Origin: Candidatus Nitrosocosmicus sp.
GTDB taxonomy: Archaea; Thermoproteota; Nitrososphaeria; Nitrososphaerales; Nitrososphaeraceae
Assembly: GCA_025934495.1 (NCBI GenBank)
Contig: JAICXY010000020.1
Coordinates: forward strand, 1 to 40,318
Reading direction: 5' to 3'
DNA: 40,318 bases
The notes beneath the pieces were generated by a model. The model made no database searches and was not told the origin of the DNA. It was given only the letters and a program-made list of their open reading frames with translations. Position numbers and translations under genes: made by a program. The first letter of the stretch is position 1. Every line of letters starts with the position of its first letter. This document shows positions 1 to 29,476 of this stretch, piece after piece.

Positions 1-15
1 AATGTTTTGAACATA

Positions 16-372
16 ATGATTTCAGTAACAAAAAAACAAGCATCTTTAGCATTTGTTGTAGTCGCATTTGCAACAATAATGATTGCAGGAACTATCGCAG
101 CAAGTACAGGTAGTGTTTTTGCATGGAGAGATCGACATCATTCCGATCACTTCAACAGCTTTGAATTCAATCACTTTAACCACTCCAAACACAACGGCAA
201 AAGATCTCACACTGACCAAAGCATAAGCCAAGGATGTGTCCAACCAACCAGTTCATTTGATTCAACTTCTGGTGCAGCTTCATTGGTTACAGGCTCAGGT
301 AATAACATCCCAATCTGTGCAAACCTCAATCTTGCAGGCAATGCAGCAGCAACTGACCAAAGCGGCCATTAA
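16..372 (+). CDS. Small secreted His-rich protein (paralogue of 2670-2990)
   Basis: About 118 residues. The N-terminus (MISVTKKQASLAFVVVAF) is a basic head followed by a hydrophobic core and a plausible signal-peptidase site after SVFA near residue 37. The mature part begins with a His/Asn/Phe-rich stretch and ends with a motif of the form SGNNIPICANLNLAGN. Two cysteines (GCVQ and ICAN) are shared with the paralogue and could form a disulphide. I chose the ATG at 16 rather than the in-frame TTG at 7 because the paralogue starts at the equivalent position. Function is unknown; the His-rich segment could bind metal (inference). A T-rich hairpin follows the stop. Confidence 0.75.
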   Translation: MISVTKKQASLAFVVVAFATIMIAGTIAASTGSVFAWRDRHHSDHFNSFEFNHFNHSKHNGKRSHTDQSISQGCVQPTSSFDSTSGAASLVTGSGNNIPICANLNLAGNAAATDQSGH

Positions 373-2669: not shown

Positions 2670-2990
2670 TTAGTTAATTGCTGCTACATTACCACCGGCA
2701 TTAAAGTTTGCACATGTTGCAATGTTATTGCCTGAACCAAGAATTGGTGAACCTGCACCCCCAGTTAAAACGGTTGATTGTTGATTTTGGTTGCAGGATT
2801 GGCTAATACTTTGGTGTATACTAGAATGTCTGCCGTTATTATCATTGAAGTGATTGAAGTGGAAGAAATGGCCTCTATGTGCAAAAACTGAATTGTCTGC
2901 AACGAAGGAAATGGTGCCTATAATCATAACTGTTGCAAATGCTACTACAACAAATGCTAAGGATGATTGTTTTTTAGTTATATGTATCAT
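2670..2990 (-). CDS. Small secreted His-rich protein (paralogue of 16-372)
   Basis: 106 residues starting MIHITKKQSSLAFVVVAF, closely matching the first gene of the window through the signal peptide (predicted cleavage after SVFA near residue 36). The mature part has a His/Phe/Asn-rich segment (HRGHFFHFNHFN), the motif QSCNQ, and the C-terminal motif SGNNIATCANFNAGGN. Cys, Asn and Gly positions in the tail match the paralogue, while the middle differs in length. The two genes lie on opposite strands about 2.3 kb apart. Function unknown; secretion is well supported and metal binding by the His-rich part is a guess. Confidence 0.75.
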   Translation of the reverse strand: MIHITKKQSSLAFVVVAFATVMIIGTISFVADNSVFAHRGHFFHFNHFNDNNGRHSSIHQSISQSCNQNQQSTVLTGGAGSPILGSGNNIATCANFNAGGNVAAIN

Positions 2991-3361: not shown

Positions 3362-3665
3362 TTATTTGTTGATCTTTCTTGTATCTATTAATAAATAAAG
3401 TAAATATGCTACCATACATGATAAATAAACTATAAAAAAAATCATCTAGAGGACTAAATCAAATCAGAAAAGAAATAAATGGTGAAAAATCTTTTCGATA
3501 CGAGATTTGGTTAGCGGAAGTCCCCTGCATATCATTCATAGATCTCGTTCCTATTTGATTGCTCTTTCCAAAACAATGCTCAAATCCGAGTCCTCTACGT
3601 GCTTGTTATTATACGGTTTAAAGTACGTTGAAAAAGTTCATTACTGGTTTCGACATTTGTATAAA

Positions 3666-3689
3666 ACACTATTCATATTTGAATAGTGT
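3666..3689. other. Perfect 10-bp inverted repeat with 4-nt loop
   Basis: ACACTATTCA, loop TATT, then TGAATAGTGT. It lies about 160 bases beyond the 3' end of the cyclase-like gene and could be a terminator for that minus-strand transcript or a protein-binding palindrome. Confidence 0.5.
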
Positions 3690-3846
3690 CCATTATTATT
3701 AATTAGAGTTATAGTTGATAGACGTATTATCTAATCATACCTTTCATTAACATTGCACAAATTATAATAATTGCAGAGGCAATTACTACTAATAATATTT
3801 TATAGATAATAAAAACAAGTTTTATTTATATTCATTGATGGTTAAT

Positions 3847-4656
3847 TCACATATTTGTATAAACATGGTATACATCTTTCTCGGTATTGTTACTAGTATA
3901 ACTCCATATTGCTGGACTAAAATCTAGTTGTTGGAATAAAGACTTTTGACTGTCATCCAATACATCATAAATTAATTGACCTATTACCATATGATTTGGA
4001 TTAGCAAGTGTAGTCATTTTTACTGCAATACTTGTGCTGTAACCTAAGATGTCATAAACGGGTTTCTTTATAGAAATTTGTTCTTTTTTGGTAATGGTAT
4101 TGTCCCCATTTTCTTCCACATCAATCATGTTATGGTGAATGTCCCAACCACTTTGTATAATGGCATTTTCACCAATATCGATTCCTATTCTTAAATTCAT
4201 ATCGGGACAATTGTATTGATTCAAAATTGGATTTATTCCATTATTGGCCACCTGAAACATGCACCTTGCACAATTTATTGCACTGATGCACTCGACTTTT
4301 GCTTGAGGTTGTTGGCTAGAAACAACAAAAAATGCAAGGACCGCATCTCCAACATATTTTAGAACAAATCCTCCAAATTCCTTAACTATAAGAGACATTT
4401 CCTGATTAAAGGTTTGAATCATCTTTGTCATTCTATCTAAAGGGAGTGTCATAGATATCTTTGTAGATCCAACAAGATCTACATTCAAAATCACAAATTT
4501 CATTTTTGATTTAGCAAATTTATCCAAAACATTTTGAGTTTCAGCAACAGAAATAATAAACCCGGGTTCCCCACCTAATGTATTTCCGATTCTACTTTGA
4601 GATTTCTTCATTATAGAATGTACATCAACCAAAGAAGATGACTCAGGTTTATCCAT
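3847..4656 (-). CDS. Class III adenylate/guanylate cyclase-like protein (possibly degenerate)
   Basis: 269 residues from the ATG at 4656 (an in-frame TTG lies three codons upstream). The class III cyclase domain covers roughly residues 52-230. Visible core residues are the first metal Asp (VILNVDLVGSTKIS, D60), the second (KYVGDAVLAFF, D104) and the Lys of the KxxGD motif typical of adenine specificity (K100). In the later ILGYSTSIAVKM segment, where family members have a GDxVNxAxR pattern, Asp is Tyr206, the transition-state Asn is Ser209 and Arg is Lys213. Activity is therefore doubtful. The gene follows the cyclic-nucleotide-binding reductase on the same strand after about 100 bases, so co-transcription is likely. 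The homologue at 28406-29476 keeps the Asn. No membrane segment is visible. Confidence 0.85.
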   Translation of the reverse strand: MDKPESSSLVDVHSIMKKSQSRIGNTLGGEPGFIISVAETQNVLDKFAKSKMKFVILNVDLVGSTKISMTLPLDRMTKMIQTFNQEMSLIVKEFGGFVLKYVGDAVLAFFVVSSQQPQAKVECISAINCARCMFQVANNGINPILNQYNCPDMNLRIGIDIGENAIIQSGWDIHHNMIDVEENGDNTITKKEQISIKKPVYDILGYSTSIAVKMTTLANPNHMVIGQLIYDVLDDSQKSLFQQLDFSPAIWSYTSNNTEKDVYHVYTNM

Positions 4657-4758
4657 ACTCTTCAACAGAATATGATTGCAGCATAATTATAAAAGATCAA
4701 CATATTCTTGTACCGATTATTTTTACTAACCTCTTCTAATATTTGATCTTTTTTCTTC

Positions 4759-6438
4759 TTATTCCTGGAGCACTTGATGAACAAATGAGATTGCAATTGA
4801 TCCTTCACCCACTGCAGACGCAACACGCTTGATACTGTCAGCTCGTACGTCACCCACAGCAAAAACGCCAGGCAAACTGGTTTCAAGTAAGTAGGGCTGA
4901 CGGGCGAGTGGCCATCCTGCCGAACTAAGATCTTCTTTCAAAAGATCGCGACCGGTTTTGATGAAACCTTTACTATTGAGGGCTATGCAGTCATCAAGCC
5001 AACGAGTGTTCGGATCAGCACCTGTCATTATGAAAACGTGATTAATATCATGAGCCTCAGACCGACCCGTTTGATTGTTTCGCAATATAGCAGATTGTAG
5101 ATGATTTTCTCCTTCAAGTGATATGATTTCAGTATTAGTTCGTAATAAAATATTAGGAGTCTCTTCTATCCGGCGTATCAGATAACGGGACATGCTCTGT
5201 GCCAAACCGCCGGATCTAACGAGCATATGCACGCGATTTGTTGTCTGGGATAGAAAGACGGCCGCCTGTCCTGCGGAATTTCCTCCCCCGACCACAATTA
5301 CTTCTTCTCCCGAACATAACTGAGCTTCCATAAAGGTTGCCCCGTAATATACTCCTGCACCTTCAAAGCGTGACAAGTTTTTTAATTGTGGCTTTCTATA
5401 TTCAGCACCAGTTGCAATCACTATTGTATTGGTTGGAATTTGAACATCATTTTCTAATTCAACTATATATGGTTTCCTATTGCAGAGAAGTCGTGTACTC
5501 TTGGAAATAAGGATTTGTGCACCGAACTTCTGTGCCTGATGATATGCCCTAGCTGCTAGTTCTTGACCTGAGATACCGGTAGGAAATCCCAAGTAATTTT
5601 CAATTTTCGAGCTTGAACCTGCCTGGCCACCAGGTGAATATGCATCAAGTACTAGGACATCAAGCCCTTCGGAAGCGCCATATACTGCTGCAGCCAATCC
5701 TGATGGTCCTGCTCCTATAATTACAAGATCTCGCACCTGTGTTTGGTTAACAGGTTCATTGAAGCCAAGACACTCTGTAATTTGCTGGTTAGTTGGATTG
5801 CGAAGTACAACTTTGCCCTGACATATCATTACAGGTATCTCTTTTGCATCAATATGAAAATTATCCAGGAGATTCTGAACATCTTGATCGCGATCAAGAT
5901 CTATATATGAATAGGGATGTCCATTGCGCATCAGAAACTCTTTGATACGAAAAGTACCCGATGAATGCATAGAACCAATAAGAACAACATCGCCTGTACC
6001 AGAAGCTACCAGCTCAACTCTACGAAGAATAAAAGCCCGCATAATAATTTCACCAAGTTCTGAATCGCTCTGTAATAAACTCATCATGTTTTGACGGTCA
6101 AGGCATATCACTTTGCTTGGTTTGATAGACCGTATTCGAACCATAGATCGGCGTCCAGAAAGCATGTTGACCTCTCCTGTGAATTCACCAAAGCCATGCG
6201 TGGTAATAAGAGTCTCTACTTTACCACCAGATGGATGCACAACCTCAAGCTCGCCAGAAACCACAACAAAAAATGGGATAGCACTATCTCCCTGTTCAAC
6301 TAAAACTTCTCCAACATCAACTGTACGCATTTTCCCACGTGCTTCAATGCGACTAATTTGTGAAGGAGTTAATTTTGGGAACATCTGCTCTACACGAGAT
6401 CTTGTTATCGGAATTTTCTCTTTAGGTGTATTATTCAT
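4759..6438 (-). CDS. Cyclic-nucleotide-binding domain fused to thioredoxin-reductase-like flavoprotein
   Basis: 559 residues in three parts. Residues about 20-140 are a CNB domain with a phosphate-binding cassette (GEVNMLSGRRSMV, Glu89 and Arg97). Residues about 148-225 have a glutaredoxin-like fold pattern but Ser/Gly/Thr where the CxxC should be. From about 236 comes a FAD/NAD(P)H reductase of the thioredoxin-reductase family (VIIGAGPSGLAAA; NAD(P) motif VVGGGNSAG; C-terminal VFAVGDVRADSIKRVASAVG). The redox CxxC of true thioredoxin reductases (CATC) is replaced by GATF (366-369), so classical thioredoxin reduction is unlikely; electrons may go to another acceptor. The ATG at 6438 is preceded by an AGGGGGG ribosome site, preferred over the ATG at 6483. 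Base composition is more GC-rich than its neighbours, suggesting transfer from bacteria. It is probably co-transcribed with the cyclase-like gene downstream. Confidence 0.9.
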   Translation of the reverse strand: MNNTPKEKIPITRSRVEQMFPKLTPSQISRIEARGKMRTVDVGEVLVEQGDSAIPFFVVVSGELEVVHPSGGKVETLITTHGFGEFTGEVNMLSGRRSMVRIRSIKPSKVICLDRQNMMSLLQSDSELGEIIMRAFILRRVELVASGTGDVVLIGSMHSSGTFRIKEFLMRNGHPYSYIDLDRDQDVQNLLDNFHIDAKEIPVMICQGKVVLRNPTNQQITECLGFNEPVNQTQVRDLVIIGAGPSGLAAAVYGASEGLDVLVLDAYSPGGQAGSSSKIENYLGFPTGISGQELAARAYHQAQKFGAQILISKSTRLLCNRKPYIVELENDVQIPTNTIVIATGAEYRKPQLKNLSRFEGAGVYYGATFMEAQLCSGEEVIVVGGGNSAGQAAVFLSQTTNRVHMLVRSGGLAQSMSRYLIRRIEETPNILLRTNTEIISLEGENHLQSAILRNNQTGRSEAHDINHVFIMTGADPNTRWLDDCIALNSKGFIKTGRDLLKEDLSSAGWPLARQPYLLETSLPGVFAVGDVRADSIKRVASAVGEGSIAISFVHQVLQE

Positions 6439-6448
6439 GAATCTAGTT

Positions 6449-6455
6449 CCCCCCT
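6449..6455 (-). promoter_or_regulatory. G-rich ribosome binding site deciding the reductase start
   Basis: On the minus strand AGGGGGG ends 10 bases before the ATG at 6438 and lies inside the longer alternative frame. This favours the start MNNTPKEK over the upstream ATG at 6483. Confidence 0.5.
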
Positions 6456-6603
6456 GCAACTGCAACTGCTTTTCCCAAACCATCGCTTTGATCTCAAATC
6501 AATTGACTCAAACAAATATGAATTCACCAAATATATTCATTGTCAATCAGTACTTTTATCTTATCGGTCTCTAGAATCGCATCATCCGGAAAAACCAGAG
6601 AAT

Positions 6604-9349: not shown

Positions 9350-9956
9350 AATATAAAAAGCATTTATGTTTCTATTTTTCAGGATCATATTTAAGAAAAG
9401 CAGAGCAGACAGATTATCACATTGCTTTATCAAAAGAAATCATGCTATTTGGACCTGGATTCAAAAGTAATCCTCAGAAAATATCCTAATTAAGAAAAAG
9501 AAAATCTCGGAGTATTCTTATATACAAAAAGATGAGACTGCTGTAAAAGCAGGCTCCGAATTAATATGACTTTGTGGGGTTGCCATCAAACCAAAAGATA
9601 GAAAAATTCTTTCAGTTGAGATATCAAAAGAACAGAATCTGTTTGTAGTAGCAGAACGATTTTTGTCAAACATTGTAAGTGAATATGGGCTGCACTCGGT
9701 TTTTACAGGCGGTGGCACATGGTATCCGCAAGCCTGTAGTTTCTTGAAACTAGATCATCATTTGCATTGTTCTTTCAAAAAAAGCATTATTGAAAGAACA
9801 ATACAGCAGTACATAAAGGATAGAACCGAAACCTTTGATGACTACTTTCCTTGTAGAAAAAAGAACAAATGTAAATTAAACCATGTAAAACAGTGGCTCA
9901 ATATGTTTATTGATCAACATAATTATGAAATAAGACCTTGAGATAACAAAGCCGAA
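9350..9956 (+). pseudogene. Decayed IS6-like transposase, copy 2
   Basis: The pieces run in order and match the copy at 26867-27554. CFYFSGSYLRK is near 9370-9400; DETAVKAGSELI with the first Asp is near 9530-9567; ILSVEISKEQNLFVVAERFL is near 9600-9665; and the intact 3' half (GTWYPQACSFLKLDHHLH, then IIERTIQQYIKDRTETFDDY with the catalytic Glu) runs to the stop at 9941. Frameshifts and stops lie at about 9490 and 9567. The 5' end is missing; a degenerate right end (GATAACAAAGCC) follows at about 9944. Inactive. Confidence 0.75.
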
Positions 9957-10137: not shown

Positions 10138-12480
10138 ATGGGACCGAATAGAAATATCGTTATTTTAAGCATTTTAATTATTGGAATTGGACTTTATTTG
10201 TCAATTCATATTGATACTGCAATAGCCCAACAACAATACCCAAACAACATTAATAATAACAATGGAGCACCTCCACAACAACAACCGCAACAACAAATTC
10301 AGAAACAAAATTTGCCAAGTATAACAATTTCTGTACCTGCAGGTGCAGGCCTCAAGACATTGGACAATTATTATCAACCAATGGTTATTACAGTACCAGT
10401 CGGAAGCAAAATAACTTGGAAGAATGATGATGTATCACCACATACGGCAACATCTCTCGCAAATGGTTCTAATCCAACTGGAAATGGAAAGTTATTTGAT
10501 ACAGGTATAATTCCTCCTAGTTCGTCAAAATCTGTTACAGTGGATAGAGTTGGTACCATAAATTACTTTTGTTCTATTCATCCTTGGATGCATGGGATTC
10601 TAAATGTTGTGCAGACGTCTAATCTGGAATTAAAAGGAAATCCATCTCAAACACAAAAATCATCTACACAACAACAACAACAACGTCAACAAGAATTACC
10701 ATTGCAACAACCATTAGATAAAATGCTGTCAGAAAACAAACCAATAGTTACATACTTTAAGGCAAAAAATATGTCTTTTAATAATTTAAACAATTCTGCA
10801 ATACCAAATCATTCTAACACCAAAAACAATTCTGTTACTTCTGAAACCGCTACTACTACCTCCATCCTAGCCGCTGCCACTAACACAGGAACAGAGTCAC
10901 AGAACAAAGATAACTGGATAACCGCAAGTCATGATATATTCGGTACAAGATCAAGTAACCAAACAGCAATCGATAAACAAAATGTAGGTTCCCTTCAGGT
11001 AAAATGGATTTTGAATACTCAAAATATGATAGAAGATTCGCCATTAATAATAGGTGATAGGGGATTTGCACAAGATAATGATGGTAATATATTTGCATTC
11101 AATGCAACCACTGGAGAAAACCTATGGAAAGTAGCCACAGGAAATGGAGGTCTTGTACATGGATTGACTTTTGATAATGGTGTTGTCTATGCTGGTACAG
11201 ACAAGAATGCCACTGTGTTGGCTCTAAATGCAACAAATGGTAAAAAGATTTGGCAATCTCAAACTCTTGGACCCAATCAAATAGGTTATTCAGTATCTAC
11301 TCCGCCGATAGTTTGGAAGAATTTTGTTGTAGTAGGATCTGCAGGTGGAGATTATCCTCCTTATCCAGGGGTCATCCAAGGAAATATAACAGCACTTGAT
11401 AAAAATAATGGCCAAATAATATGGAATTTGCGCACTACTACTGGAGATTGGGTAACTTCTAAGAATGTGCCACCAAACGGTGGTGCAACTGCTTGGACTG
11501 GCGGTTCATTCGACCCTAAAACTGGACTTTTGTATATACCGCTAGGAAATCCTTCACCTGATTTCAATCCCTCAACACGACAAAATTCAACCAATTACTT
11601 TGCAAACAGTGTAATTGCTGTCAATATTACCAACGGCAAACCGGTATGGGTAACGCCGTTTTTTGGAAAAGATAGTATATTCAAAATAAATTCTCCAGAA
11701 ACACACGATGACGATGTATCATGGGGTGTTGTTATAACCAAAGCAACATATGATAATGGAACCCAAAAGAAAATGATAATAGGTCATGATAAATTTGGAA
11801 GCATAATTGCTATGGATGCAAATACTGGTAAACCTATATGGTGGAACAGAGTTGGCTTTTATTCAAATAAATCAATAGATTTACCATTACCTGGTGAATT
11901 TCCTAAAGGTAGTGGTTTAATCTGGGGTGATACGCATAGCGGTATTCAAGCATATGCTGCAGCAGATAAAGATACCTTGTATGTATCAACAAGCAATGTG
12001 CCAGAAAACTGGTTTAAAACAGGGAATGCTGGTTACTTGGAACCCCAGTTTAATGCAATAAAAAATGGAATCGGAAACGGAACCATAACTGCTGTAGATA
12101 TCAAGACAGGAAAAATAAAGTGGATACACCCAACAGAATTTCCAACTTGGGTCTCGCCTGTTGTAAGTAATGGAGTGGTATTTGCAGGTCAAATTACAAA
12201 TATTGGAACGCCCTACAAGTTTGATGTATTTGGAACTCCTGCAAAAACACCGTTGCTGCCAAATGGAATAGTCATGGCATTGGATAAAGACACAGGTAAA
12301 ACATTGTGGCAATTTAGAGTTGGTGCACCAATAGGAATTGGAGGACCATCTTTAGGCAACAAAATGTTATATGTTCCAACCGGATCACATGAAATACCTG
12401 CACTTAAAGCAGGTGCCATAGTTGCTTTTGGACCTCCTACAGGAACAGTTGTAGTAAATGGTGGAAATACAACAAAGTAG
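10138..12480 (+). CDS. Secreted cupredoxin fused to PQQ-dependent dehydrogenase-like beta-propeller
   Basis: 780 residues. A signal peptide ends near residue 30 (TAIA), followed by an Asn/Gln/Pro-rich linker. Residues about 60-158 are a plastocyanin-like cupredoxin with a complete type 1 copper site: His102 (SPHTAT), Cys145, His148 and Met151 (YFCSIHPWMHG). After a second Gln/Ser/Thr linker (about 160-255) comes an eight-bladed PQQ-type propeller with repeated tryptophan-dock blades. Features of the active site are visible: GGATAWTGGSFDP, GNPSPDFN (candidate calcium ligand Asn471) and HDDDVSWG (candidate catalytic Asp in 524-526). No haem c motif and no vicinal disulphide are present. A likely role is oxidation of an alcohol, aldehyde or sugar outside the membrane, with electrons passed to the built-in copper domain (inference). 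PQQ binding and substrate remain unproven. No PQQ synthesis genes lie in the window. Confidence 0.88.
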   Translation: MGPNRNIVILSILIIGIGLYLSIHIDTAIAQQQYPNNINNNNGAPPQQQPQQQIQKQNLPSITISVPAGAGLKTLDNYYQPMVITVPVGSKITWKNDDVSPHTATSLANGSNPTGNGKLFDTGIIPPSSSKSVTVDRVGTINYFCSIHPWMHGILNVVQTSNLELKGNPSQTQKSSTQQQQQRQQELPLQQPLDKMLSENKPIVTYFKAKNMSFNNLNNSAIPNHSNTKNNSVTSETATTTSILAAATNTGTESQNKDNWITASHDIFGTRSSNQTAIDKQNVGSLQVKWILNTQNMIEDSPLIIGDRGFAQDNDGNIFAFNATTGENLWKVATGNGGLVHGLTFDNGVVYAGTDKNATVLALNATNGKKIWQSQTLGPNQIGYSVSTPPIVWKNFVVVGSAGGDYPPYPGVIQGNITALDKNNGQIIWNLRTTTGDWVTSKNVPPNGGATAWTGGSFDPKTGLLYIPLGNPSPDFNPSTRQNSTNYFANSVIAVNITNGKPVWVTPFFGKDSIFKINSPETHDDDVSWGVVITKATYDNGTQKKMIIGHDKFGSIIAMDANTGKPIWWNRVGFYSNKSIDLPLPGEFPKGSGLIWGDTHSGIQAYAAADKDTLYVSTSNVPENWFKTGNAGYLEPQFNAIKNGIGNGTITAVDIKTGKIKWIHPTEFPTWVSPVVSNGVVFAGQITNIGTPYKFDVFGTPAKTPLLPNGIVMALDKDTGKTLWQFRVGAPIGIGGPSLGNKMLYVPTGSHEIPALKAGAIVAFGPPTGTVVVNGGNTTK

Positions 12481-26866: not shown

Positions 26867-27554
26867 GACTCTGTTCAATTAAGAAAATCTTTTAGCTCGA
26901 AGACGTCTTATTTCCTTTGTGCTTATCAGAAATAAAACGCCTCCAGAATACATATATCATGGTCTGTATTTGTATTTTTCAGGTCTTTCTTTAAGAAGAA
27001 CATCTCAACAATTGTCTTGTTCTATAAAACGAAACCACGTTTCTATCTGGAACTGGATTCAAAAGTATCATCCTCAAAAGATATCATCTAAAAGCAAAAG
27101 GATATCTGAATTTATCATTGATGAAACCTTGATTAAAGTTGAGTTAGAACTAGTATGGCTTTGGGTTGCAATAATTGAGCCATCAGGAAACAAGCAAGCA
27201 AATTCTCGCATTATCAATCTCGAAAGAGAGAAACATGTTTGTTGTTGCTATTGAAAGATTTATTTCAAAATTAGTGATAACTTATGGATCACATCCAGTT
27301 TCTGCAGACGGCGATGGTACATGGTATCCGCAGGCCTGCAGATTCCTAAAACTACAACATCACCTTCACAACTCTTTTGAAAAAAGCTTGGTTGAAAGAA
27401 CAATGCAATACATAAAGGACAGAACTAAAGAAAGTTTCGATGACTACTTTCCGTGTAGACTTGATAAGTGCAAACTAAAACATGTGAAAAACTGGTTGAA
27501 TTTATTTATCCATTACCACAATAAGGAGTTAGGAATCGTTAAATGAACCGAGCC
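26867..27554 (+). mobile_element. IS6-like insertion sequence, 688 bp, with near-perfect 8-bp target duplication
   Basis: The left end GACTCTGTTCAATTAAG (26867-26883) and the right end GTTAAATGAACCGAGCC (27538-27554) are inverted repeats matching at 13 of 17 positions. The flanks are TTTTAATC on the left and TTTTAATA on the right, an 8-bp duplication with one mismatch, the length made by IS6 elements. The short total size also fits the family. The transposase inside is frameshifted. Confidence 0.75.
26883..27546 (+). pseudogene. Frameshifted IS6-like DDE transposase
   Basis: The first frame reads ARRRLISFVLIRNKTPPEYI, GLYLYFSGLSLRRTSQQL, the helix-turn-helix part NHVSIWNWIQKYHPQKISSK and FIIDETLIKVELELVWLWVA with the first catalytic Asp, then drifts into a stop at 27254. 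The second frame, overlapping by about 80 bases, gives SISKERNMFVVAIERFISKL, then VSADGDGTWYPQACRFLKLQ with the second Asp, and SLVERTMQYIKDRTKESFDD with the catalytic Glu, to the stop at 27546. An indel near 27185-27230 splits the protein. All DDE residues survive, so inactivation may be recent. Confidence 0.75.
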
Positions 27555-28405: not shown

Positions 28406-29476
28406 ATGAAAACAAAGTTTCTTTTTATGGATATTAACGGTAGTATTAATGATGACGATGATGATGATAGATATCCATATCAATCTATTCTTAACCTTTA
28501 CGAATCTAATATATCAACAGATGTTATTGCATCTCAATTAGATATTAACCAAATAGATGTGGTTAATACATTAGAAAATATTCATAAAGATAAACAAAAT
28601 AAAGAGAAAAACATTATCGATGCATCTTTTAAACCAAAGAACGAGATGATAAATTCAGTTTCTGAGTTCGATATAGAAAACTCTATAAAAGATATACAAA
28701 AAAGAGTATGGACCAGATTAAAAGCAAAACCTATTTTTAATATAGATTTAAAAGATATTCATCCGATACTAGAAAAGATTGTTAATACTAATGTCTATCT
28801 TGTTATCCTGTATGTAGATTTAGTTAGTTCAACAAAGTTATCCATGAATCTGCCTCTAAAAAGGCTTACTCCAATAATACAAATGTTTACTCAAGAGATG
28901 TCTTTAATAGTTGATGCATATGGAGGATATGTCTTTAAATTTGTGGGAGATGGCATATTGTCATTCTTTTTTGTTGCAGATAAAGATAATCTGTATCTAC
29001 CGTGTTCCAAAGCAGTAGATTGTGCTTATTCTATGATAAACGTTATAGAAAAAGGAATAAATGACATTTTAGAAGGAAATGGCTATCCTGAATTAAATAT
29101 AAGAGTTGGTATTGATGTTGGCGAAAATGCAGTTGTCCAATATAACATAAAAACAAACTGCAACAAAAACAATAAGCAAGGAAGAGAAATTATTTATAAA
29201 AAAAATAGCAATAATCAAAGATATGCAGATAAAAAAGCAAATATACAACAAAAGTCACAATTGGATATATTAGGTTATACCATTAATACTGCATCAAAAA
29301 TGACCCAATATGCAAAGCCAAATCAAATTATTATAGGATCTGCAGTATATGATAAAATAGATAAAGATAAGAAAAAGCATTTTAAGAAAATACATCTTGT
29401 TAATGAATCTTGGGATTATATAGACAATTCAAATGGAAATATTTATGGAATATATGGAAATCAACTAATAATTTAA
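28406..29476 (+). CDS. Class III nucleotidyl cyclase-like protein with N-terminal helix-turn-helix-like segment
   Basis: 356 residues. Residues about 25-60 (ILNLYESNISTDVIASQLDI) resemble a helix-turn-helix. The cyclase domain runs from about 128 to 325: first metal Asp138 (LYVDLVSSTKLS), Lys178 and second metal Asp182 (FKFVGDGILSFFFV), and the later LDILGYTINTASKM. There the transition-state Asn is kept (Asn294), but Arg is Lys298 and the specificity Asp is Tyr291. It is a clear homologue of 3847-4656 (MSLIV and VGD contexts shared), with a Lys/Asn-rich insertion (about 246-282) before the Y-containing motif. Likely cytoplasmic. It may make cAMP, or may be a nucleotide-binding sensor that has lost catalysis. 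Confidence 0.85.
   Translation: MKTKFLFMDINGSINDDDDDDRYPYQSILNLYESNISTDVIASQLDINQIDVVNTLENIHKDKQNKEKNIIDASFKPKNEMINSVSEFDIENSIKDIQKRVWTRLKAKPIFNIDLKDIHPILEKIVNTNVYLVILYVDLVSSTKLSMNLPLKRLTPIIQMFTQEMSLIVDAYGGYVFKFVGDGILSFFFVADKDNLYLPCSKAVDCAYSMINVIEKGINDILEGNGYPELNIRVGIDVGENAVVQYNIKTNCNKNNKQGREIIYKKNSNNQRYADKKANIQQKSQLDILGYTINTASKMTQYAKPNQIIIGSAVYDKIDKDKKKHFKKIHLVNESWDYIDNSNGNIYGIYGNQLII

Follow-up and report, generated by a model that had tools for sequence, protein, structure and literature searches.

The window, by which we mean the whole 40,318-nucleotide stretch of DNA analysed here, encodes a flavoprotein with a CNB domain, a thioredoxin (Trx)-like domain and a thioredoxin reductase (TrxR)-like module, accompanied by a class III cyclase-like gene. 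The flavoprotein, referred to below as the reductase, belongs, as an archaeal representative, to a family of fused flavoproteins that is widespread, is found mostly in bacteria and has lost both CxxC motifs, and the gene pair is not conserved; we are highly confident of these two points taken jointly. As an overall explanation we favour, with good though lesser confidence, a bacterial-type CxxC-less CNB-flavoreductase with a neighbouring cyclase that is not dedicated to it. New is the archaeal occurrence of the reductase; the kind itself is already known and little studied. In the draft genome of this soil archaeon (G000; 3.56 Mb in 200 contigs) the window makes up contig 33, and the relatives compared with it are Nitrososphaeraceae. 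The features discussed are listed in Table 1.

Table 1 Window coordinates of the reductase, the cyclase and associated features
Feature	Position	Strand	Remarks
CNB / Trx-like / TrxR-like flavoprotein (reductase)	4759..6438	-	559 aa from ATG 6438; in-frame ORF to 6483 gives 574 aa
CNB domain, PF00027	6064..6324	-	
Phosphate-binding-cassette-like GEFTGEVNMLSGRRS with Glu89 and Arg97	6145..6189	-	Family-conserved; Arg out of register against PKA cassettes
Thioredoxin/glutaredoxin-like domain without CxxC	5764..5991	-	Contains Cys206 and Cys223, kept in most family members
TrxR-like FAD/NAD(P)H domains, PF07992 / TIGR01292-like	4801..5730	-	
GATF replacing the CATC of TrxR	5332..5343	-	Residues 366-369, 559-aa numbering
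Cys375 in EAQLC	5314..5316	-	Invariant among 67/67 CNB-type members
TATA-box-like TTTATAATTA	4684..4693	-	Lies 37 nt before the ATG of the cyclase; also kept where the genes are divergent (G067)
Class III cyclase-like gene	3847..4656	-	ATG 4656; alternative TTG start 4665
Decayed N-terminus left over from a second copy of the CNB-reductase	3484..3581	-	Downstream of the cyclase
Paralogous cyclase	28406..29476	+	40% identical to the window cyclase

The reductase ORF was searched with Pfam profiles and gave a match to the cNMP-binding domain PF00027 above the cut-off (E 1.8e-12); the spans obtained were 54-140 for the CNB domain and 252-561 for the pyridine-nucleotide-disulfide oxidoreductase, and PF07992 was matched with E 2.5e-29. 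The thioredoxin reductase equivalog model TIGR01292 was matched with E 3.8e-66 but at 222.9 bits, against an equivalog cut-off of 343.45, and the redox-active CxxC that marks this equivalog is missing from the window reductase. The AhpF equivalog model scored 136 bits, below its cut-off of 502.9, and both domains are without CxxC, the thioredoxin/glutaredoxin-like stretch reading SMHSSGTF. The order of domains in the single chain (N-terminal CNB, Trx-like, TrxR-like) is that of the ATII-TrxR-type family. An AlphaFold model, made from an alignment without plasmid sequences, has a mean pLDDT of 80, and its best Foldseek match was AhpF over 441 columns, followed by TrxRs over about 330 columns. 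A canonical TrxR with CATC is encoded at another site in G000. The initial annotation had described a glutaredoxin-like domain lacking CxxC and a change of CATC to GATF, both of which are in the sequence, and had read the protein as a CNB-coupled NAD(P)H flavoenzyme without a thioredoxin-type CxxC, which is a fair reading of an architecture conserved as such.

The same annotation called the reductase "without its redox cysteines". This stands in that there is no CxxC here, but the loss is family-wide and not specific to this copy: at the CATC site the CxxC is absent from 69 of 69 aligned members, with Cys at neither position (G, A, S, N or W at residue 381 and F, P, M or L at residue 384, 574-residue numbering). 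Pseudogenisation, or any other copy-specific loss of redox cysteines, was rejected because the whole family shares the loss. The window reductase has both the [GASN]AT[FPM]-type motif in place of CxxC and the conserved Cys in EAQLC. Besides this invariant Cys375, the CNB-type members conserve Cys319 (65/67), Cys206 (58/67) and Cys223 (56/67; all in 559-residue numbering).

A scan of a genome collection with the reductase returned 49 loci, of which 45 were bacterial (Acidobacteriota, Gemmatimonadota, Pseudomonadota and others). Most of the bacterial loci, from several phyla, have the full CNB/Trx-like/TrxR-like architecture and are 53-67% identical to the window reductase. With tblastn, 129 plasmid records were found, mostly annotated as FAD-dependent oxidoreductase where annotated. 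The CxxC-less family, which is bacterial, plasmid-borne and either CNB- or receiver-fused, is widespread, and it is almost uncharacterised. The reductase is present in 29 of the 70 Nitrososphaeraceae genomes; a 300-genome sample of the phylum contained it only in the window's own genus. In a maximum-likelihood tree (single model, midpoint root), the 23 archaeal CNB-reductases form a single 100/100 clade nested inside bacterial sequences. The reductase was probably acquired from bacteria by an ancestor of the Nitrososphaeraceae copies, to judge from this nesting; because the root is a midpoint root, we infer the direction of transfer. The GC content of the gene (42.8%, against 32.4% for the window and 27-37% for most neighbours) lends the transfer weak support, because two further window genes are comparably GC-rich.

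Both Glu89 and Arg97, which the initial annotation had named as the cassette of the CNB domain, are present, but the motif either does not keep the register of the canonical cassette or has one residue fewer. In gapless HMMER alignments of PKA regulatory subunits with the window CNB domain, the Glu is in register, Arg97 lies opposite Pro, and Ser98 lies opposite the canonical phosphate-binding Arg. The cassette Glu occurs in 62 and Arg97 in 57 of the 67 CNB-type members, the latter aligning one residue before the PKA Arg, and the consensus across the reductase family is FTGEVxMLSGRR[SAT]. The reading as a clearly cAMP-competent cassette was not adopted, on account of the Arg register. Because of the family consensus and the shifted Arg, binding of cAMP or cGMP by the window CNB domain is possible, yet not implied.

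The cyclase ORF, 3847-4665(-), matches PF00211 with E 8.8e-9; G000 contains 18 PF00211 matches, and relatives of the window cyclase occur in 68 of the 70 Nitrososphaeraceae genomes. Its catalytic positions were checked against CyaB and the structures 1wc0/1wc1. As in class III adenylate cyclases, the metal Asp63 and Asp107 and the base-specifying Lys103 and Asp205 are retained, but the transition-state residues are replaced, the catalytic Arg by Lys216 and the Asn by Ser212 (TTG-start numbering throughout). Lys takes the place of this Arg in 40 of 40 aligned family members, where the Asn is either Ser or Asn. The window cyclase scores 88 bits against the PADLOC PycC model and 36 bits against Pfam Guanylate_cyc (PF00211), and two Arg-type cyclases in G000 score about equally against the two models. 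Lys is also found at the catalytic-Arg position in the aligned Pycsar cyclase structures 8jsf and 7r65; their base-pocket residues differ from Lys103/Asp205. The product of the window cyclase would most likely be cAMP, although this is uncertain because the PycC-type score and the Lys stand against the retained ATP-type Lys/Asp pair. A literature search on archaeal cAMP signalling found nothing direct. Cyclases with Lys for the catalytic Arg and a retained ATP-type Lys/Asp pair form a multicopy family in Nitrososphaeraceae (window 3850-4665 and 28406-29476; L010-L026 and L057-L084).

The cyclase-like gene had been placed downstream of the reductase on the same strand within about 100 bases, and this is correct: the gap is 93 nt to the TTG start and 102 nt to the ATG. 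Conservation of the pair in archaeal genomes, on the other hand, failed. Among the reductase loci compared, the co-directional arrangement occurs only in the window and in G001:C161; the two pairs of proteins are 98% and 96% identical and the DNA is 97.2% identical over 3 kb. The G000 and G001 loci, being about 97% identical, were therefore counted as one case. The nearest cyclase homologue (67%), on G067:C399, points away from a CNB-reductase whose start is about 0.9 kb from its own. Eighteen other archaeal reductase loci, taken with several kb on either side as far as their contigs reached, have no cyclase within 5 kb; nor does one occur in the flanking sequence available for 45 bacterial reductase loci, which extends to 4 kb at most. 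The cyclase subtype itself (at least 65% identity) adjoins a CNB-reductase in three of the three genomes that carry it, which amounts to two independent cases; that every carrier has the two side by side hints at some linkage.

Upstream of the cyclase, a block, GATnnTTTATAATTAnnCnGCAATCATATTC, that ends just before the cyclase start is common to the co-directional and divergent arrangements; sequence further upstream is not conserved. A conserved block with unconserved upstream sequence fits an archaeal TATA box and an independent cyclase promoter, and the TATA box is likely to be the cyclase's own. Scans for sigma-70 promoters and intrinsic terminators were uninformative for archaea. A co-transcribed conserved operon was rejected on the non-conservation of the pair and the conserved TATA box. 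The dedicated cyclase-reductase module initially proposed does not hold up either, since the pair is not conserved, the cyclase apparently has its own promoter, and 42 of 70 genomes are without a Pfam CNB match as against 68 of 70 with a cyclase of this type. The adjacent cyclase is probably a lineage-specific neighbour, one of many paralogues rather than a dedicated partner, and the two genes ordinary neighbours.

The decayed CNB-reductase N-terminus downstream of the window cyclase is also present downstream of the cyclase in G001 (L085:5438-5596), in a region that is rearranged. Window positions 3485-6492 and L085 (G001:C161) share a 3-kb block of 97% DNA identity across genomes assigned to different genera, explained either by a transfer not long ago or by faulty binning of one draft; a ribosomal S4 comparison of G000 and G001 gave no match in either. 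Elsewhere in the window, the region is flanked by 7-372(+) and 2670-2990(-), which lie on opposite strands and encode two small proteins that are related to each other and look secreted. Two related short ORFs at 9663-9941(+) and 27175-27546(+) resemble transposase fragments and have the common motif WYPQAC...HHLH...IKDRT; Pfam gave no clear match for these two, and a sub-threshold SEFIR match for 27175-27546(+) only. A cupredoxin-like domain fused to a PQQ-type beta-propeller is encoded at 10138-12480(+) and is probably an exported copper protein or quinoprotein.

In G000, with its 18 PF00211 cyclases, PF00027 is found only on the two CNB-reductases. Any Pfam CNB match occurs in 28 of the 70 Nitrososphaeraceae genomes and none in the other 42, and nearly all of the listed family matches are CNB-reductases or a CNB-histidine kinase beside the response regulator (RR)-fused reductase. 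That cyclases are widespread without CNB receptors argues against a strict cyclase-reductase pair. Where a CNB-reductase exists, it is the main candidate for a cyclic-nucleotide receptor. Should the CNB domain sense such a nucleotide, an archaeon with 18 cyclase-domain genes would have its only recognisable cyclic-nucleotide receptors in these reductases, and they would give a handle on the role of archaeal cyclic nucleotides.

Several functional readings were weighed against each other. A module in which the cyclase product, once bound by the CNB domain, controls how the reductase oxidises NADPH and supplies an acceptor other than thioredoxin would agree with the presence of the two genes side by side in all three subtype carriers (co-directional in the window and G001:C161, divergent in G067:C399), with the CNB-reductases being the sole PF00027 proteins of G000, and with the intact metal Asp and Lys/Asp base residues of the cyclase. 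We nevertheless consider it improbable, as no cyclase lies near the other archaeal and bacterial reductase loci examined, the conserved TATA box is specific to the cyclase, CNB matches are missing from 42 of 70 family genomes against 68 of 70 with the cyclase type, the 97% identical G000 and G001 loci are one case, and the cassette Arg is out of register. Signalling in trans with no module involved is rather unlikely; here the nucleotide could come from any of the 18 cyclases, and the two CNB-reductases would sense it, making the reductase a general effector in those Nitrososphaeraceae that have it. The confinement of PF00027 to these proteins in G000, and to them or to the CNB-histidine kinase beside the RR-fused reductase in nearly all matches of the relatives, speaks for it; cyclases are, however, equally common in genomes without CNB proteins, and it is common for a CNB domain to bind a different ligand or no ligand at all. 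Doubtful, but with a somewhat better claim, is an oxidative-stress or iron-linked flavoreductase whose electrons go not to thioredoxin but to ferric iron or to a thiol system damaged by peroxide, the CNB serving as a stress-signal or assembly domain. Among the 45 bacterial loci, eight have a Dps/ferritin gene next to the reductase, as does one plasmid, and five of these genes are co-directional and immediately upstream; moreover, some TrxR-like proteins without CxxC are FNRs that reduce iron (PMC10294844). The recurrent Dps neighbour together with the TrxR/AhpF-like fold would point to oxidative or iron stress, yet no Dps gene lies near the archaeal reductase copies and the majority of the bacterial loci are without one. 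The Dps/ferritin-like neighbours were seen upstream on the same strand in L095, L102, L103, L105 and L106, and also in L093, L130, L133 and L156, with PF00210 in the three that were checked.

A Pycsar-like unit, in which the cyclase is of the pyrimidine (PycC-like) type and the CNB-flavoenzyme is an effector that depletes NAD(P)H on infection, is extremely improbable. The better score of the window cyclase against PycC than against PF00211, with the Arg-type cyclases of G000 about equal, and the Lys for the catalytic Arg shared with both aligned PycC structures would agree with it, but the purine-type Lys103/Asp205 pair is kept, unlike in both aligned PycCs, such cyclases are near-universal and multicopy in Nitrososphaeraceae, no cyclase lies near the bacterial reductases, and there was no further PADLOC match among 10 other window proteins. 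Pycsar membership was not accepted, because the base pocket and the lack of conserved adjacency do not fit it, and a defence-island context was rejected on the same PADLOC result. More broadly framed, a two-gene signalling or defence unit of ammonia-oxidising archaea, in which a Lys-type (PycC-like) cyclase makes a cyclic nucleotide that turns on NAD(P)H consumption by a CNB-gated TrxR-like flavoenzyme without CxxC, is very improbable as well.

For the CxxC-less CNB-flavoreductase that we prefer, a mechanism can be put forward tentatively, at a little under even confidence: NAD(P)H would give its electrons to FAD, and non-CxxC cysteines would relay them to an acceptor of the disulfide or stress type, under CNB regulation. 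The reductase most likely oxidises NAD(P)H through its FAD. Electrons would then reach a disulfide or another stress-related acceptor by a non-canonical route, perhaps via two conserved cysteines in the Trx-like domain (Cys206/Cys223) and two in the flavoprotein (Cys319/Cys375), although these cysteines could be structural. The CNB domain would be the regulatory input.

Our literature search on CNB-TrxR fusions gave nothing relevant beyond ATII-TrxR from the Atlantis II brine pool, in which a CNB (Crp) domain is fused to a TrxR module (PLoS One 2019, PMC6544261). With NADPH this enzyme is reported to reduce thioredoxin (Km 1.0 uM, kcat 28 per s) as well as DTNB, for which the Km is 98 uM, and it also uses NADH; its authors give Cys206-Cys223 and Cys376-Cys467 as redox centres, neither of them a CxxC (PMC6544261). 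ATII-TrxR matches WP_011516654.1 at 87%. The initial view that loss of CxxC excludes reduction of thioredoxin or disulfides is therefore off the mark, an enzyme of the same architecture with no CxxC listed being reported as active on DTNB and thioredoxin (PMC6544261). The window reductase resembles ATII-TrxR in domain order (CNB, then TrxR-like) and length (559 against 552 aa), and Cys206, Cys223 and Cys376 of ATII-TrxR fall at or beside Cys206, Cys223 and Cys375 of the window protein, as compared by Cys number and domain layout. As these first three Cys numbers fit cysteines conserved here, a disulfide-reducing role of the window reductase via a non-CxxC route is credible. ATII-TrxR differs in its bacterial origin and measured activity, and its Cys467 has no counterpart in the window reductase. 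The kinship is a lead and not proof, because the cysteine spacing of the Cupriavidus metallidurans homologue is different and ATII-TrxR was matched by Cys numbers and domain layout.

The CNB "FAD-dependent oxidoreductases" of Cupriavidus, Rhizobium and Acidobacteriota are 43-67% identical to the window reductase and have the GATF-type CxxC loss in common with it. Low-Mr thioredoxin reductases (TIGR01292) share the two-domain FAD/NADPH fold and are the nearest sequence and structural matches; the window reductase differs from them in its lack of CxxC, its sub-cut-off score and its additional CNB and Trx-like domains. As in AhpF, a Trx-fold domain is fused N-terminally to a TrxR-like module, but both AhpF CxxC centres are absent, a CNB domain is added, and no AhpC gene was seen adjoining. 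The window cyclase is like PycC (7r65, 8jsf, 8jsz) in its Lys for the catalytic Arg (7r65 and 8jsf alignments) and in fitting the PycC model better than Pfam Guanylate_cyc; it differs in keeping the base-specifying Lys/Asp of ATP-type cyclases, in belonging to multicopy, core-like genes, and in that no TIR or TM effector was seen. In Nitrososphaeraceae we also observed a paralogous pair, an RR-fused CxxC-less TrxR-like protein followed by a CNB-histidine kinase (L053:697-4097, L052:421-3676); the G000:C54 copy (L003) runs over two frames, perhaps because it is broken or because of misassembly. This RR-fused protein shares with the window reductase a Trx-like/TrxR-like core of 43-47% identity, the lack of CxxC and, through the neighbouring histidine kinase, a tie to a CNB domain, and it differs in having a receiver rather than a CNB as input domain and in that the equivalent of Cys375 is not conserved.
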